64,000 nucleotides of DNA, taken from positions 3,296,501 to 3,360,500 of the forward strand of contig NZ_CP033069.1 in the NCBI RefSeq assembly GCF_003669015.1, in the 5' to 3' direction. Below, piece by piece: positions 37,267-47,526 of the stretch (positions within the stretch are counted from its first letter, which is position 1; each line of letters opens with the position of its first letter). The DNA comes from Acidovorax sp. 1608163 (GTDB lineage Bacteria; Pseudomonadota; Gammaproteobacteria; Burkholderiales; Burkholderiaceae_C). The notes beneath the pieces were generated by a model. It saw only the letters and a program-made list of their open reading frames with translations. It was not told the DNA's origin and searched no databases. Position numbers and translations under genes: made by a program.

Positions 37267-37342
37267 GGGTTCTTAGCTCAGTTGGTAGAGCAGCGGACTC
37301 TTAATCCGTAGGTCGAGTGTTCGAGTCACTCAGGACCCACCA
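37267..37342 (+). tRNA. tRNA-Lys (anticodon CUU)
   Basis: A 76-nt cloverleaf. The acceptor stem is GGGTTCT with AGGACCC, followed by an encoded CCA. The D-arm contains AGCTCAGTTGGTAGAG. The anticodon stem GCGGA/TCCGT closes the loop CTCTTAA, giving anticodon CTT. The T-arm is GAGTG-TTCGAGT-CACTC. Its 3' 48 nt and the following 17 bp recur exactly at 47426-47490, marking it as the integration site of an island. Confidence 0.95.
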
Positions 37343-37359
37343 AACAAAGCCGCAAGGCA
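37295..37359 (+). repeat. attL: 65-bp direct repeat at the tRNA 3' end
   Basis: Identical to 47426-47490, starting in the anticodon stem (GGACTCTTAATCCG) and ending 17 bp past CCA (CGCAAGGCA). The offset is 10131 bp. Confidence 0.93.
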
Positions 37360-37363
37360 CAAG

Positions 37364-37401
37364 AAGCCGATGCTATACAAAATGTAGCGTCGGCTTTTTT
37401 G
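37364..37401 (+). terminator. Terminator after tRNA-Lys
   Basis: AAGCCGATGCTA pairs with TAGCGTCGGCTT, followed by six T. A sister hairpin with a different stem follows the attR copy. Confidence 0.85.
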
Positions 37402-38254: not shown

Positions 38255-38496
38255 GGCCCTGAGCTGCCATTGATCTGCTGTCCACAGCCGCAAATTTAGT
38301 GCTGGGTTTCTGATTACGGGAAAGCTGTAGGTTGAGAACTTACCGCTTGCCAGATTTCGCGGAGTTTTTATATCTGTGTTTTTCAGAGTTCATTGGTCGC
38401 AACCCAAACCCGCAAGCTCCTTCCCGGAGGCGGGAATGTCCAAAATGTCCCGCACAATTCAGCTTGTCCCGCGTGGTTTGCGGGGGATATCACGTT
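38255..38496 (+). repeat. Island leader element, copy 1
   Basis: The gap 38205-38506 holds no gene. It carries GGGCCCTGAGCTGCC (38255), a promoter-like TTTTTATATCTGTG (38365) and, 69 bp after its TATA, a core of GTCCAAAATGTCCCGCA with an imperfect second unit (CAGCTTGTCCCGC), the inverted TTTGCGGG and a terminal ATCACGTT. The DUF2262-like start codon follows 10 bp later. Copies 2 and 3 are at 39880-40166 and 42235-42371. Confidence 0.75.
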
Positions 38497-38506
38497 TTAG
38501 GAAGTT

Positions 38507-38983
38507 ATGAGCTACCCTGCCGAGTATGCCGGTCTAGGTAGGTTGGTGCTGAGCAGCCAATTTTCGGCTGCATTGGTTGGTCAACTTTCCTACGGAACTG
38601 GCCATGTTGATTTCGTCATCGATCCGGATGGCGAACCCATTGAAGATTCGCTTGCACTCGCTGCATCTGCGGCGGGCGCTCTGACCGACCTTGATCGTAG
38701 GTGCAAAGAACTTGTGGCGGCGGAGTATCTAGATTCGTACAACACAGGTTGGCGCATTGGCGAGGTGATGCGTCCTGATGGTAATTTCGAGCGATTTGAG
38801 AAACCCGCGCTGTCGCCAGCGGAGTTCTGCGAAAAACTGGAGCTGAAGTCCTTTGAGGCCACCGGTGGAACTTTGCTCACATTTTGGTATGACGACGATG
38901 GGATGTTTTGGGGTCACAGCCTGTACGTGGACTCCTTTGATGGGGCATTGCTCGGTGACACGCATGTTGCAATGTTCGGTTGA
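38507..38983 (+). CDS. DUF2262-like protein, cassette gene
   Basis: 158 residues. The C-terminal half resembles DUF2262 (LTFWYDDDGMFWGHSL, ending VAMFG); the N-terminal half is a small alpha/beta region I cannot place. There is no signal peptide. The gene sits between leader copy 1 and a follower block (39041-39072) that matches the sequence after the attC site at 40712, so it occupies the same kind of slot as the cassette at 40177. The function of DUF2262 is unknown. Confidence 0.6.
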   Translation: MSYPAEYAGLGRLVLSSQFSAALVGQLSYGTGHVDFVIDPDGEPIEDSLALAASAAGALTDLDRRCKELVAAEYLDSYNTGWRIGEVMRPDGNFERFEKPALSPAEFCEKLELKSFEATGGTLLTFWYDDDGMFWGHSLYVDSFDGALLGDTHVAMFG

Positions 38984-39879: not shown

Positions 39880-40166
39880 GGGCCCTGAGCCGCCGTGGGA
39901 CAAAAGTACCCCAAAGCTGCCGTTGATTCACTACCCGCTGGCTTGACGTCCAAACCGCGCTGTCTCAGTGCCCGGTGCCTGCCTACTGGCAAGCTATAGT
40001 TTGCCGAGTTGACGCGTGCCGGGTTTGTCGGAAATTTTATACCTGTGCTTTTGAACAGCGCACTGACCGCAAGCCCAATCTGCAAGCCATTTTCAGAAGG
40101 AATCAGTGTCCAGAATATCCCGCAAGGTCCAGTTTATCCCGCAGGTTTTGCGGGATACATCACGTT
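39880..40166 (+). repeat. Island leader element, copy 2
   Basis: GGGCCCTGAGCCGCC (39880), AAGCTGCCGTTGATT (39914), a promoter-like TTTTATACCTGTGCTTTT (40035), then the core at 40108: GTCCAGAATATCCCGCAA, a second GTCCAGTTTATCCCGCAG, the inverted TTTGCGGGAT and CATCACGTT. The two 18-nt units are direct repeats, and the second forms an 8-bp hairpin with the inverted arm. The core is nearly identical to copy 3. The final GTT begins the cassette heptamer GTTAGAG (40164-40170). Confidence 0.8.
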
Positions 40167-40176
40167 AGAGCTACTT

Positions 40177-40707
40177 ATGCCGAGCCGCGCAACCGAGTTG
40201 AAGTACGTTCGCCGAGTGCTTGACGCCCATGCCACCCGTTTTCTTGAAGAAAGTGGCATGGATTTCTATCACGATCAGTTTTTCTACAAATACACCGATG
40301 AGGCCATCTACTTTGCAGAGGTCGGCGTCTCGGGAGCATTTCGCGGTGAGCACTGGAAGAGCTTGAGTTGTACCTTGCATATCTACTACAAAGACTTGCC
40401 GGGCTTTGGTAAGCCACCACTGCACGAATCGGGCAATCCGATACCAACCTATCGACAGTCTCGTCTTAGGTTCATCCAGGAGCGAACCATTGCCCAGAGC
40501 GAAATCTACGAGAAACTGAGCAACACAACTTTGGCATTCGATCGCAACTTCTGGCACGTTCTAGATGACGAATCCAATATTCCAGAGGTCATCTCTGATA
40601 TGGCCACTGTTCTCCGCGAAAAGGGGCTGCCGCTTGTCCAGAGGGAAACTTACTCCCGAGCGTCCATGCTCGAAAGAGAAGTCCTCGCAAAGCAGCGCGC
40701 CAAGTGA
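40177..40707 (+). CDS. Integron-cassette protein of unknown function
   Basis: 176 residues, soluble, aromatic-rich N-terminus (MDFYHDQFFYKYTDEAIYFAE), and a C-terminal helix (VISDMATVLREKG). I do not recognise the family. The start codon lies 6 bp after GTTAGAG, and the stop lies 4 bp before an attC whose first heptamer CTCTAAC is the exact reverse complement of GTTAGAG. That is the layout of a mobile gene cassette: short leader, one ORF, attC. The GC content is well below the backbone. Confidence 0.7.
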   Translation: MPSRATELKYVRRVLDAHATRFLEESGMDFYHDQFFYKYTDEAIYFAEVGVSGAFRGEHWKSLSCTLHIYYKDLPGFGKPPLHESGNPIPTYRQSRLRFIQERTIAQSEIYEKLSNTTLAFDRNFWHVLDDESNIPEVISDMATVLREKGLPLVQRETYSRASMLEREVLAKQRAK

Positions 40708-40711
40708 ATAG

Positions 40712-40804
40712 CTCTAACAATTCCGTCGAGAGGGACGGCCCAAAGCTGCGCTTTGGGTTCCCTCCGCCTTCGGCTCCGGCCGCCCCTCACGTCAAACGTT
40801 GAGC
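40712..40804 (+). repeat. attC recombination site
   Basis: R'' CTCTAAC (40712-40718), spacer AATTC, L'' GAGAGGGACGGCC, an inner stem CAAAGC-TGC-GCTTTG and a GC-rich variable loop, L' GGCCGCCCCTCAC, spacer, and R' GTTGAGC (40798-40804), which fits GTTRRRY. L'' and L' pair at 11 of 13 positions. The length of 93 bp is normal. Confidence 0.8.
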
Positions 40805-41199
40805 GTCCGCTTTCATTTGCCGCCACCGGCTGCTTCTGGCCGAAATCTGTCGGCCATTCATCATAGGCCCGTAACGCAGCCTCGTTTTCCATACAGCGCA
40901 CGCGCGCACCGACAGAAGCCGTCAAATCCCGTCATGCGGAAGGCTCACAAAACGGGCCGTGAGGCCGCGCCGGGCCTTGCGCGGTATAGGGTCGGCAGGG
41001 TCGGCAAAAACGGCCTATCAAGAGGGCGGGCGCGGCGGGGTCTCGACTGCGCGCCGCCGGGTTGAATGGGGTGGGTGCGGGTCGGGTGGGGGCGGGGGCG
41101 CCCTCCCCCTCTGGCGCCCCCCGCACAGGGCCAGCGAGGCGCACAACAGGGCGCGGGCATGGCCTGGGGTGGGTGAAGCGGTGCGCACGCTGTAGGGGC
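40805..41199. other. Non-coding stretch between attC and the methyltransferase
   Basis: It begins with follower block B (to 40843), then mixed sequence, then an extreme G-rich run (about 41068-41105) and matching C-rich run. Several open frames cross it on both strands, but all look like composition artefacts. It may be the remnant end of a prophage segment. Confidence 0.45.
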
Positions 41200-41258: not shown

Positions 41259-42065
41259 CTAGGCCGCTGCCTGCCGATCCTCTGGCAGCAGCGCCTGCAG
41301 GCGGGCCGCAGCCACGTCGAAGTAGTGCCGGTCTTGTTCTATGCCGATGAAGCGGTATCCGGCCTGGACTGCCGCCACGCCCGTGGATGCGCTGCCCATG
41401 AACGGGTCGAGGATGACGCCGCCGGGTGGCACCGCCTGAACCAGCTTGTGCATCAGCTCCACCGGCTTGCCTGTCATGTGCAGCTTCTTGCGGTGGTCCA
41501 CCCGTTCACGCACGACGCCAGGCCAGGGGCCGCCATGCTCTGCGATGGCCAGGGGGCCGTTGCTGCCCCAAACCACGTATTCGCACTGGTGCCGAAAGTA
41601 GCCCTTGTGTGGCGCGCGTGATGCCTCGGTCTTGTCCCAGGGCACCAAGCCGCGCCACACCAAGCCACCGGCCTGGAAGGCATCGGTCAACGCTGGCAGC
41701 TGGCGCCAGTCGGTGAACACCATGGCATAGCCACCCGTGCGCAAAGTTTGGCGAGCGATGGACACCCAGCAGCTCACCCAAAACGCCCAGCTGCGCTGGT
41801 CTCGGTTGTCGCCGCTGAAGTCCACGTTGTGCGCGGCCGCCAGTGCTGGCCCACTCTGCACATACTTGGCAGAGGTGGATTGCATCCTGTCGCCCCGCAC
41901 CATGCCACCGCTGCTGTAGGGCGGGTCAGTAATGAGGGCGTCCACCTGCAGGCCCAGGTGCTGCAGTATCTGCATTGCATCGCCGTGGTAGATCGTGGCG
42001 TTGCCGATGTGGCGGCACCAGGGTGCGTCCGGGGTTGTGATTGAGTTGTCGTTCGCTTGCGTCAT
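41259..42065 (-). CDS. Phage-type site-specific DNA methyltransferase (N6-adenine or N4-cytosine)
   Basis: 268 residues. The catalytic motif DPPYSSGG (47-54) precedes the SAM-binding DPFMGSASTG (about 220), the order of the beta class. The middle holds the target-recognition region. No restriction partner is present, so it is probably an orphan enzyme, as in prophages where it protects DNA or alters regulation. It overlaps a com-like open frame upstream, the arrangement seen in Mu-like and related phages (com with a modification gene). The target sequence is not predictable. Confidence 0.82.
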   Translation of the reverse strand: MTQANDNSITTPDAPWCRHIGNATIYHGDAMQILQHLGLQVDALITDPPYSSGGMVRGDRMQSTSAKYVQSGPALAAAHNVDFSGDNRDQRSWAFWVSCWVSIARQTLRTGGYAMVFTDWRQLPALTDAFQAGGLVWRGLVPWDKTEASRAPHKGYFRHQCEYVVWGSNGPLAIAEHGGPWPGVVRERVDHRKKLHMTGKPVELMHKLVQAVPPGGVILDPFMGSASTGVAAVQAGYRFIGIEQDRHYFDVAAARLQALLPEDRQAAA

Positions 42066-42228
42066 GGTCAGTTGTGTTTGACGCTCGCTGGCGTTCTGGC
42101 TGGGGACTCGCGGCCCTCAAGTTGTTCAGTGTCCCGCAGCGGGGGCACTTGATTTCAATCACCTGGAACACTGCGCGCGCCAGCAGGCGGTTGGCTTTGG
42201 GGCAGTTCGTGTTCAGCCTGGCTTCATG
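41926..42228 (-). pseudogene. Com-family zinc-finger regulator, N-terminus lost
   Basis: The frame reads NCPKANRLLARAVFQVIEIKCPRC then GTLNNLRA and SPQPERQRAS, clearly Com, the Mu translational activator family. The second Cys of the first CxxC knuckle is gone (CPKA), and no ATG exists between the in-frame stop at 42229-42231 and the motif; the only start-like codon is GTG at 42171, which would delete half of the finger. The break falls just after leader copy 3, so the leader replaced the original 5' end. The frame runs on into the methyltransferase, as in phage com genes. Confidence 0.7.
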
Positions 42229-42234
42229 TTACAT

Positions 42235-42371
42235 AACGTGATGTGTCCCGCAAAACCTGCGAGATAAACTGGACCGTACGGGATATTCTGGACATTGATT
42301 TCTCTTGGAAGTGGCGTGCATCAAATCAACGGCAGCTTACGGGCGGCATTCCCAAAAGACAGCTCAGGGCC
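42235..42371 (-). repeat. Island leader element, copy 3 (cut by IS1182-family insertion)
   Basis: On the minus strand: GGCCCTGAGCTGTC, AAGCTGCCGTTGATT, then the core GTCCAGAATATCCCGTA, GTCCAGTTTATCTCGCAG, TTTGCGGGAC, CATCACGTTA (42235-42294). Core identity to copy 2 is about nine in ten. It points at the com-methyltransferase genes. Its upstream part continues on the far side of the IS (45286 onward, CGCTTTGGGCC). Confidence 0.8.
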
Positions 42372-43005
42372 GAGGCTGTGTGAAAACCCAACCCACAACA
42401 GCTGCTAAAAACTAAAATAACGGCACCCGATTCAAGCGAGGTGCTCCATGAAGCGATTCATCGAAGGCGAAGACCGACAACAGGTCACCCTGCTGCCTGA
42501 GTGCCTGGACGACTACATCTGCGAGGACAACCCAGTGCGGGTTGTCGATGTCTTTGTCGAAGAGTTGGATCTTCGGGCACTCGGTTTCGATGGGGCCCAT
42601 CCTGCTGTCACTGGCCGGCCTGCGTACCACCCAGCCGTACTGCTCAAGCTCTACATCTACGGGTACTTGAACCGCATCCAATCGAGCCGCCGCTTGGAGC
42701 GTGAAGCCCAGCGCAATGTCGAGCTGATGTGGCTGACCGGGCGCCTTGCACCAGACTTCAAGACCATCGCGGACTTCCGCCGAAGCAACGGCACGGGCAT
42801 CCGCAACGTCTGCAAGCGCTTCATCGCCATGTGCCGACAGTTGAACCTCTTCTCGCAGGCCATCGTGGCGATTGACGGCAGCAAATTCAAGGCCGTCAAC
42901 AGTCGCGACCGCAACTTCACACCCGGCAAGATCGAGGCTCGCCAGCAGCAGATCGAGCAAAGCATCCAGCGTTATCTGGACTTCACCCGGTTTCGTAGAC
43001 ATATT

Positions 43006-43866
43006 TCAACTTCCGTTTCGAAGTTGTTCGAATGCCAGCGGACTCAGTTGGTCTAGGTGACTGTGCCGACGGATTCGATTGTAAAAACCTTCGATGTAGT
43101 CAAACACATCTGACTTGGCGTCTTGCCTGGTGGCATAGATATGGCGTTTGATTCTCTCCTTCTTCAAGCTGCTGAAGAAGGACTCTGCTACCGCGTTGTC
43201 CCAACAGTTTCCACGTCGGCTCATGCTTGGCACCAATTGGTTGTCCTTGCACCAGCGGGCGAAGTCGTCACTGCCAAACTGACTTCCTTGGTCGGAATGG
43301 ATCATCACTGGACCCGTTGGGCGCCTGCGCCACACTGCCATCGTGAGCGCATCCAACACCAACTCTGTAGCCATGCTGGAGTTCATCGCCCAGCCGACCA
43401 CCATGCGCGAGTACAGGTCAATTACGGCCGTTAGGTACAACCAGCCCTCATGGGTTCGGATATAGGTAATGTCGGTGACCCACACTTGGTTCGGTAGCGT
43501 GACCGTGAACTCACGTTGCAACCGGTTCGGTGCGGCAGTCGCAGGAAGACCGACTCGGTAGCGTGGCCGCTTGTAACCACGCACTGAGCGCAGTTGGGCC
43601 TGGCGCATCAGGCGTGCTACACGTTTTTGACCGCACGCCATACCGTCCTCTCGCAAGTCCCGCAGGATGCGTGGGCTTCCATAAATCCCGTGGCTGTCGT
43701 CAAAGGATTGCCGAATGCTTGCCAGCAAGACATCGTCGGCTAAGGCGCGTTTGGACTTTGGATTGGCCTTCCAAGCGTAATAGCCACTGCGCTGTACGCG
43801 CAGAACGCGGCACATGCTGCTGAGCCGGAACTGGCCTTTATGTTCGGCCATGAATGCGCACTTCAC
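43006..43866 (-). CDS. IS3-family transposase OrfB
   Basis: 286 residues in the frame open from 43866. HTH_21-like start (SSMCRVLRVQRSGYYAW), then the DDE integrase core: VWVTDITYI (first D), IHSDQGSQFG (second D) and SFFSSLKKE (E). It is normally made as an OrfAB fusion by -1 frameshifting at the A6G run (43896-43902) inside orfA; the GTG at 43866 is not necessarily used. Confidence 0.93.
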   Translation of the reverse strand: MKCAFMAEHKGQFRLSSMCRVLRVQRSGYYAWKANPKSKRALADDVLLASIRQSFDDSHGIYGSPRILRDLREDGMACGQKRVARLMRQAQLRSVRGYKRPRYRVGLPATAAPNRLQREFTVTLPNQVWVTDITYIRTHEGWLYLTAVIDLYSRMVVGWAMNSSMATELVLDALTMAVWRRRPTGPVMIHSDQGSQFGSDDFARWCKDNQLVPSMSRRGNCWDNAVAESFFSSLKKERIKRHIYATRQDAKSDVFDYIEGFYNRIRRHSHLDQLSPLAFEQLRNGS

Positions 43867-44144
43867 CCGGACAGCTTGGCAAAGTACGTTGCGGCCTTTT
43901 TTAGGATGTCGCGCTCCTCATTGGCCCTTTTGAGCTCCGCTTTGAGCCGGGATACCTCGGCCTTGAGCTGGCTTGTCTCTGCCCCCCCTGCGCTCGATTG
44001 CTCTTTGGCAAGCCGCACCCACAGGTACAGGCTTTTGTCCGACATGCCCAATCGCTTGGCTACATCCACTACCCCATGACCACGCTCGGTCACCTGTTTG
44101 ACGGCTTCTGCCTTGAACTCAGCCGGGTATCGCACTCTCTTCAT
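43863..44144 (-). CDS. IS3-family transposase OrfA
   Basis: 93 residues: an HTH_Tnp_1 domain (KRVRYPAEFKAEAVKQV, VVDVAKRLGMSDKSLYLWV) and a leucine-zipper coiled coil (LKAEVSRLKAELKRANEERD) ending at DILKKAATYFA, where the slippery A6G sits. It overlaps the OrfB frame. Confidence 0.93.
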   Translation of the reverse strand: MKRVRYPAEFKAEAVKQVTERGHGVVDVAKRLGMSDKSLYLWVRLAKEQSSAGGAETSQLKAEVSRLKAELKRANEERDILKKAATYFAKLSG

Positions 44145-45346
44145 TTCTCACTCTCCAGTTCAATTTCGACCTTGATAGGTGTCTATTGAACCGGGTGAAG
44201 TCCAATCTGGACGCGCTGGAGACTGCCGATCGCACGCAGCCTACAGAGATTGAAGCCAAGACAGAACGACTGCAGGAGAAGCTAAAGAAGTTGCGCGATC
44301 AGATGCGGCGACTCGATGGTCTCAAGGAGCGGCTAAAGAGCCTGCCCGATGGCCAGATCTCCCTCACTGATCCCGATGCGCGTTCGATGGCCACCCAGGC
44401 CAAGGGATCGGGCCTGGTGGGCTACAACGTGCAGACCGCTGTCGATGCCAAGCACCACCTGATCGTTGCGCACGAGGTCACGAACGTCGGCAATGACCGT
44501 GCACAGCTGCACAACATGGCCTGTGCCGCAGACCAGGCTATGGGGAGCCAGGACTTGCAAGCCTTCGCCGACAGAGGCTACTTCAGTGGCCCGCAACTCA
44601 AGGCCTGCGAAGACTCTGGCATCACGACCTTCGTACCCAAGCCGAAGACGTCCAACGCGAAAGCCGAGGGGCGCTTCGACAAAGGCGACTTCATCTACAT
44701 CGCCAAGGATGACGAGTACCAATGCCCCGCAGGTGAGCGTGCGATCCATCGGTTCAACACGGCCGAGAAGGGCCTTAGCCTGAGCATCTATTGGACCAGT
44801 GCCTGTCCGCACTGCCCGCTACGTGAGCAATGCACGACCAGCAAATACAGACGTATCCGACGATGGGAGCACGAAGAGGTTCTGGAGCGCGTGCAGCAAC
44901 GGCTGGACAGCAACCCCGAGGCTATGACGTTGAGAAGGTCAACGGTAGAGCACGTCTTCGGCACGCTCAAGCATTGGATGGGCTCGACGCACTTCTTGAT
45001 GAAGACCCTCAAGCATGTGAGTACAGAGATGAGCCTTCATGTGCTGGCCTACAACCTCAAGCGGGTGATGTGCGTGATGGGCATCACGCAGATGATGCAA
45101 GAGATGCGGATGGCGAAGGCGTGAGGCCTTTGTTGGCTTTTACCGGCTGGCAAGGGCTTCAGGAAGGCGTCAGAAGGCCCCAGGTGCGCCAAAACCGGCT
45201 CTGCACCAGCACTGGTGGAAAATGCGGTGTAAGGATGCGGGACAGGGCTGGCCCACATGCTCGTTGAGCGTTTCCACACAGCCTCGGCCCAAAGCGGACT
45301 TTCGACCAGGTTCAGCCCAATGCAATTGGACATGGTCAAGTCAAAC

Positions 45347-47425: not shown

Positions 47426-47490
47426 GGACTCTTAATCCGTAGGTCGAGTGTTCGAGTCACTCAGGACCCACCAAACAAAGCCGCAAGGCA
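47426..47490 (+). repeat. attR: partial tRNA-Lys copy
   Basis: Exact 65-bp copy of 37295-37359. It lacks the acceptor 5' strand, the D-arm and the 5' part of the anticodon stem, so it is not a functional tRNA. Confidence 0.93.
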
Positions 47491-47494
47491 GAAA

Positions 47495-47526
47495 AAGCCG
47501 AAGCTACATCGTAGTTTCGGCTTTTT
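47495..47526 (+). terminator. Terminator after attR
   Basis: AAGCCGAAGCTAC-ATC-GTAGTTTCGGCTT followed by TTT. It is similar in position to, but different in stem sequence from, the hairpin after the intact tRNA. Confidence 0.8.

Follow-up and report, generated by a model that had tools for sequence, protein, structure and literature searches.

In the window, that is, the whole 64,000-nucleotide stretch of the Acidovorax sp. 1608163 genome that was analysed, a segment with the features of an integron gene cassette probably occupies one of the many attI-type modules dispersed over the chromosome, into which, as we infer from sequence comparison, it was loaded by an integron integrase (IntI) acting in trans. 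An earlier note on this DNA had recognised the cassette, and had overlooked both the module that heads it, one of many, and the common tail at its end.

The cassette opens with the 5' core GTTAGAG (40164-40170, plus strand), continues with an open reading frame (ORF) for 176 amino acids without a known domain (40177-40707, plus strand) and ends in an attC site (40712-40804, plus strand) with the boxes R'' CTCTAAC (40712-40718) and R' GTTGAGC (40798-40804). These heptamers, the ORF and the hairpin all lie where the earlier note had placed them, and its central observation, that R'' is the exact reverse complement of the GTTAGAG before the ORF, is borne out by reading the sequence; two letters, the initial C of R'' and the final G of the 5' core, depart from strict RYYYAAC/GTTRRRY. 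The attC covariance check proposed there was performed with R2, a model whose nine seeds are attC sites found elsewhere in this genome, the window site being excluded; it differs from the published IntegronFinder model and yields rough E-values. R2 picks out 40711-40804 well above the rest of the window, with 41.2 bits (E 7e-8 in the 64-kb window) against 12.9 bits (E 0.74) for the runner-up among the 14 matches listed, and genome-wide the site ranks ninth among the 14 R2 matches listed (E 6e-6). The proposed fold of the bottom strand gave a divided answer: in isolation it beats shuffled sequences (z = -2.84), but its minimum-energy structure is not a clean R/L hairpin. At Rfam gathering scores, tRNA was the sole match in the window. 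From R' onward runs a tail, GTTGAGCGTCCGCTTTC...CTGGCCGAA (40798-40846, plus strand, right edge set by eye), that is common to other units and to the array beside intI.

The claim that the 176-residue protein is the product of a mobile cassette gene agrees with its patchy distribution, since no match was obtained in the other 398 of the 399 family genomes searched, and with the exchange of contents, described below, where sister loci carry modules of this family. Ten relatives, 54 to 97% identical, were present in the protein database, one of them named as a Pseudomonadales MAG. The protein gave no match among known domains, and a likeness to beta-2-microglobulin, based on three weak matches to solved structures (best E 0.009), was taken as chance. 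Plasmids yielded no match to either the module (blastn) or the cassette protein (tblastn), and among viral contigs 24 stretches fit a pattern, none of which encodes a relative of the protein. Taken together, the attC model, the identity of core and R'', the patchiness and the sister-locus exchange support the reading of the segment as an integron gene cassette.

Immediately upstream, and ending at the cassette junction, lies the attI-type module (39988-40170, plus strand), delimited as positions 1-182 of R1, a sequence-only model of 12 aligned dispersed copies, nine of 181-183 bp and three shorter; similarity within the genus extends leftward to about 39880 (blastn), and inside the genus the similarity of such modules, which are about 180 bp long, spans up to about 290 bp. 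They are called attI-type modules, not attI proper, because no integrase stands beside the dispersed copies. In the window the module carries a leader ORF, GTG...CGT (40106-40168, plus strand), whose TAG stop lies inside the GTTAGAG of the cassette and which is preceded by a Shine-Dalgarno-like AGAAGGAA at 40095-40102. The leader region contains two direct-repeat copies of TATCCCGCA spaced 19 bp, the first at 40116-40124 (plus strand) and the second, which has an inverted partner, as TATCCCGCA...TGCGGGATA adjoining the core (40135-40157, plus strand), as read from the sequence with the pairing counted. Alignment of 89 module matches from own, genus and family loci revealed conserved blocks, among them GCAAGCTATAGTTTGC close to the left end, TGCC.GGGTTT, CTGCAAGCC, the Shine-Dalgarno block, repeats around GCAGGTTTTGCGG, and ACGTT.

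Most module copies keep the Shine-Dalgarno sequence, the start codon and the repeats: among 85 anchored modules, 68 retain the start codon and open frame of the leader and 62 a GGAG Shine-Dalgarno sequence. The leader comprises 20 codons up to the core, and in 37 of the 85 the next codon is a TAG within the cassette core. A conserved leader peptide was considered and rejected, as pN/pS is 1.15 and third-position variation is not in excess (P 0.86). A consensus scan found no consensus sigma-70 promoter in 39880-40180; a TGCCGG...TATACC-like pair, seen by eye, is putative. In two family modules (L105, L111) the repeats appear, by eye, to be altered in concert, an impression that would fit putative protein-binding sites. 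Matches outside the genus often start near model position 25-29. A further conserved stretch, GGCCCTGAGC...GCTGCCGTTGATT, occurs left of modules and forms an inverted pair in the window (39881-39928 and 42324-42371); this stretch could represent either a repeat of its own or an older left-hand portion of the module.

Two more copies are found nearby. One (38318-38500, plus strand) heads a DUF2262 gene (38507-38983) behind which attC and tail look decayed, the attC match scoring 12.4 bits at a window-wide E of 1, and the other, of which R1 recognises the right half only (42231-42320, minus strand), heads a DNA methyltransferase gene (41259-42065, minus strand), with no attC shown by R2. The window module and its cassette, together with these two copies, sit in a 10 kb genomic island in a tRNA-Lys gene, bounded on the left by the 3' end of the tRNA gene (37267-37342) and the following bases (37295-37375, plus strand) and on the right by a repeat of 81 bp that matches them at 96% identity (47426-47506, plus strand), where both sides are joined in the relatives G029 and G046, from which the island is missing (blastn). 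No integrase gene was seen among the island ORFs examined. Within 41259-42171 (minus strand), the methyltransferase gene behind the half module faces the cassette and is preceded by a small ORF that may resemble phage Mu Com. At 42448-45124 an IS1182-type transposase gene is interrupted by an IS3-type element, 1228 bp of which recur, 99.9% identical, in another cassette unit of the same genome, 2148199 (L032 5647-6874).

Across the genome R1 has 14 matches, namely its twelve seeds, a thirteenth dispersed copy at 1119837 (minus strand) and the attI next to intI, so that 13 dispersed copies lie outside the intI locus. Behind these 13, attC was found at E <= 0.05 in six cases, weakly (E 0.3 to 3.6) in three and not at all in four; the R2 seeds were chosen by eye within own units, which makes the nearness of attC to modules in this genome partly circular, a circularity from which the attCs of relatives are free. 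The arrays hold one to several cassettes, and the common tail closes many of them. Its pattern, with up to three mismatches allowed, has nine genome matches and the reversed pattern none; eight of the nine close such arrays, including the intI array and the module-less unit 2603195. The ninth (G000:C1:3070164-3070187, minus strand, L036), with three mismatches, remote from units and without attC in the surrounding 6 kb, is probably due to chance. Unit 2603195 itself (G000:C1:2603195-2603271, minus strand, L033) is a cassette with attC and tail and without an upstream R1 module, the exception among the ten strongest attCs of the genome.

The earlier note had described the cassette as far from any visible integrase, which holds for the window. 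The search for IntI that it suggested returned a single full-length integron integrase: across the whole 5.05-Mb single-contig genome, TIGR02249 has one match over its cut-off (461.3 bits, cut-off 265), an open frame of 350 amino acids at L023:9956-11008, about 90 kb left of the window cassette. The neighbours of this intI on the other strand are an attI, an ORF of 110 aa and an attC. R1 detects this attI, which was absent from its seeds, with 24.5 bits (E 6e-5), a match that stops at the core (model position 181); the attI itself is related to the dispersed modules only distantly.

R1 was also run on 23 loci around intI matches in 19 genus genomes. In eight of these genomes (G015, G024, G040, G012, the own genome, G031, G006 and G030) a match lies beside the intI start on the opposite strand and ends at position 181, scoring 122.7 bits in G015, 66.3 in G024 and 22.8 to 26.3 in the other six. 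The intI locus of G007, near a contig end, gave a partial match (18.9 bits, positions 18-108), and in G016 an R1 piece of 32.1 bits abuts a truncated intI; the intI loci of the remaining nine genomes had no R1 match at E <= 1. These matches beside intI starts make the dispersed modules relatives of attI, and an attI next to intI need not belong to the module type.

Modules are widespread among relatives. They are found in 39 of 47 genus genomes, the own included, by an R1 search whose stricter filters lose weak matches, and in at least 81 of 299 family genomes and at least 50 of 141 genera, numbers that are lower bounds because at most eight candidates were scored per family genome. Exact matches to the module pattern occur in 14 stretches from A. 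delafieldii, A. facilis, A. defluvii, other Acidovorax, Simplicispira, Giesbergeria and MAGs, the latter carrying only the names Burkholderiales or Gammaproteobacteria. When the attI beside intI is included wherever R1 detected it, modules are present in 10 of the 12 genus genomes whose intI exceeds the cut-off (44 in all, about 3.7 per genome) and in 29 of the 35 that have no recognisable intI (128 in all, about 3.7 per genome). Divergent module pairs were observed at L122 (G035), L130 (G017) and L118 (G030), and tandem same-strand modules about 1.2 kb apart at L116 (G009) and L148 (G020), arrangements that may bear on how modules spread.

The order and strand of module and attC are highly regular. 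In 40 loci of relatives, selected for high module scores and hence unbiased with respect to order and strand and biased with respect to nearness, attC follows 37 of 48 modules, and each of the 67 attCs of at least 20.1 bits has a module upstream on the same strand; this count omits the 10 weakest of 77 attC rows (E 0.084 to 0.74), five of which are downstream on the module strand and five not. A stricter tail motif follows 14 of the 48 modules, 12 of them with attC, and in all 12 it starts at the R' of the last listed attC. Genus-wide, 94 strong attCs (E <= 0.001) were compared with an incomplete module list of 151 rows, own attI included, from genomes many of which are fragmented: 45 follow a listed module on the same strand at no more than 5 kb, 11 have only intI in their vicinity, and 35 have neither. 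The expected order and strand thus hold for 45 of the 48 with a listed module within 5 kb, and the other three comprise two in the G030 array, whose head is its own attI, next to intI, and one in the own unit 2603212.

It has also been possible to follow the contents of modules at orthologous sites, and in the three pairs compared in detail the module stays and the contents differ. Orthologous modules are alike up to the GTT core and different beyond it, which places the junction with the first cassette at that core. Between G015 and G016 the flanks are about 95% identical, whereas the contents, 2180 and 601 bp from module core to last attC core, have no mutual blastn hit and show GTT at both breakpoints. 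Similarly, G033 and G010 have flanks 87% and 93% identical around contents of 1574 and 2404 bp with no mutual blastn hit and the core at both breakpoints. In the third pair, the own genome and G029, the left breakpoint is the core and similarity on the right restarts 9 bp past the own attC; at the right end of the G029 counterpart neither attC nor tail was recognised. At a fourth site (own 3774083, G029 2880441) the content differs and the module alignment covers just 90 bp.

Sharing of cassettes between different places was observed as well. An 853 bp segment of two cassettes is 98.4% identical between the own unit 4592350 and unit 1284595 of G029, a sister species, and the surroundings of the two units have no further match of at least 250 bp; the identity is bounded by AACGTT at either end, with the tail directly after it in G029. 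This would be the expected trace of site-specific exchange between dispersed modules. A further candidate for sharing, G012 with G010 (1539 bp, 77%), was dropped because its 5' end misses the clean core position.

Based on these data, the following sequence of events can be proposed. The module is related to the attachment-site region of the chromosomal integron in the genus, and is furnished with a leader ORF and its ribosome-binding site, paired repeats and a GTT core. Cassettes would enter through attC x attI recombination at this core, and each module would thereby come to head a small array closed by the common tail. The integrase, encoded once and elsewhere (about 90 kb away here), would work in trans, and the first cassette would probably gain translation from the leader ORF, often supplying its stop codon, as in ORF-11 of attI1. 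Transcription may likewise proceed from the module, and the present IntI may act, and may still act, at this place. Since modules are equally common in genomes without intI, the own attI is distant and four of the 13 own modules lack attC, the enzyme that moved the cassettes could be the present, an earlier or a visiting IntI. A broader view, which we favour with less assurance, is that the modules form, in Acidovorax and related genera, a distributed integron, in which the module is a dispersed conserved repeat and one integrase, resident or transient, loads a dozen chromosomal places, each with a leader ORF serving expression, the modules outliving the integrase and being reusable. Counted against loading at dispersed modules in trans are the equal frequency of modules without a recognisable intI, the nine of 19 genomes whose intI loci have no R1 match, the 35 of 94 attCs near neither module nor intI, the lack of a sigma-70 consensus and the leader's pN/pS of 1.15.

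Other explanations can be weighed against the same observations. The units might be relics of many complete integrons, each of which lost its own intI, with no action in trans. This would fit the intI or intI piece adjoining a strong module in G015, G024 and G030, the broken intI pieces present in several genus genomes and the persistence of modules where intI is absent. However, tblastn with the own IntI (E <= 1e-3) revealed no remnant in the window or in L026-L035, the stretches that surround the 13 dispersed own modules, and, leaving known intI loci aside, a single short one near the modules of relatives, and the 98.4% identical cassettes at different places require recent movement, so that the relic account appears unlikely, without being negligible. 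The single remnant (L196 4076-4261, 58.7% identity over 63 aa) lies some 4 kb from a module of G029, a genome without an intI match at E <= 1e-40, in which the loss of intI may be recent, given that it still shares the 98.4% identical cassettes.

Landing of cassettes off target in ordinary, attG-like sequence has been proposed for integrase-less attC clusters, and insertion by an IntI encoded elsewhere is one published origin of CALIN in the accessible text of PMC8618304; this could apply to the 35 genus attCs without a listed module or intI near them. Yet the same attI-related module of about 180 bp precedes each site and stays constant while contents change in three orthologous pairs, and we regard off-target landing as quite improbable here. 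The module could also be conceived as an unrelated dispersed repeat, such as a promoter or transposon end, standing before cassettes by coincidence. It is indeed a dispersed repeat, and four of 13 own copies are without attC, but its homology to the attI beside intI, the expected side and strand of all 67 counted attCs, and the replacement at the GTT core make coincidence very hard to accept. Almost no credence can be given to the idea that the window hairpin is a chance palindrome behind an ordinary chromosomal gene: it could invoke the initial C of R'' and the imperfect minimum-energy fold, against which stand the distance between 41.2 bits and the 12.9 bits of the next place in the window, the match of 5' core and R'', and the module and tail at the two ends. 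Cassettes loaded into dispersed attI-type modules in trans therefore remain the preferred reading.

In the usual description an integron has a single attI next to a single intI, and cassette clusters that lack an integrase are regarded as debris or as the result of off-target insertion. The present system resembles a sedentary chromosomal integron in its attC-ended cassettes, its GTT core, its attI-related array head and the TIGR02249 IntI in the genome, and differs from it in that head sites are many, dispersed and without an adjoining integrase, whereas a typical integron, as outlined in the accessible text of PMC9024848, has one attI close to the integrase. CALIN and SALIN (attC clusters or a single attC without integrase) likewise place cassettes away from intI, and multiple CALIN loci are known in Xanthomonas (PMC12444791, available text); the clusters reported here, in contrast, are preceded by a conserved attI-type module and followed by a common tail. 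The window unit, with one clear attC, falls short of the default CALIN definition of IntegronFinder 2.0, two or more attC with no intI nearby (PMC9024848, same text), while other own units hold two to four (e.g. L026, L032). Insertion at attG shares with our case the use of places other than the resident attI; attG sites are, as cited in the available part of PMC12444791, consensus sites distinct from both attC and attI, unlike the modules, which are a homologous family related to attI.

A close parallel to the leader is ORF-11 of attI1, a short ORF with a Shine-Dalgarno sequence over the attachment site that takes its stop from the cassette core (PMC8876359, text as accessible). The module likewise has a short leader ORF, a Shine-Dalgarno sequence and a stop codon supplied by the cassette core; it differs in having 20 codons instead of 11, another sequence and many copies per chromosome, and it is known at the level of DNA sequence. 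In the delta-attI-type cassettes of mobile integrons, displaced attI sequence takes part in IntI recombination (PMC12901181, in its available part), and attI sequence is there, as here, outside its usual place; those are attI pieces in unusual cassettes of mobile integrons, whereas here whole modules head dispersed arrays. Among the matches listed in the open full-text literature there was no paper on dispersed attI sites, which is weak evidence as it leaves subscription papers mostly outside its scope.

In conclusion, a module family of this kind would expose a gap in detection software, since attI is ignored outside class 1, to which its detection by IntegronFinder 2.0 is limited according to the accessible text of PMC9024848. 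Dispersed attI-type modules with exchanged contents would give integrase-less clusters a defined entry point and perhaps expression, and they make testable the question of whether one IntI can serve many attachment sites in trans.
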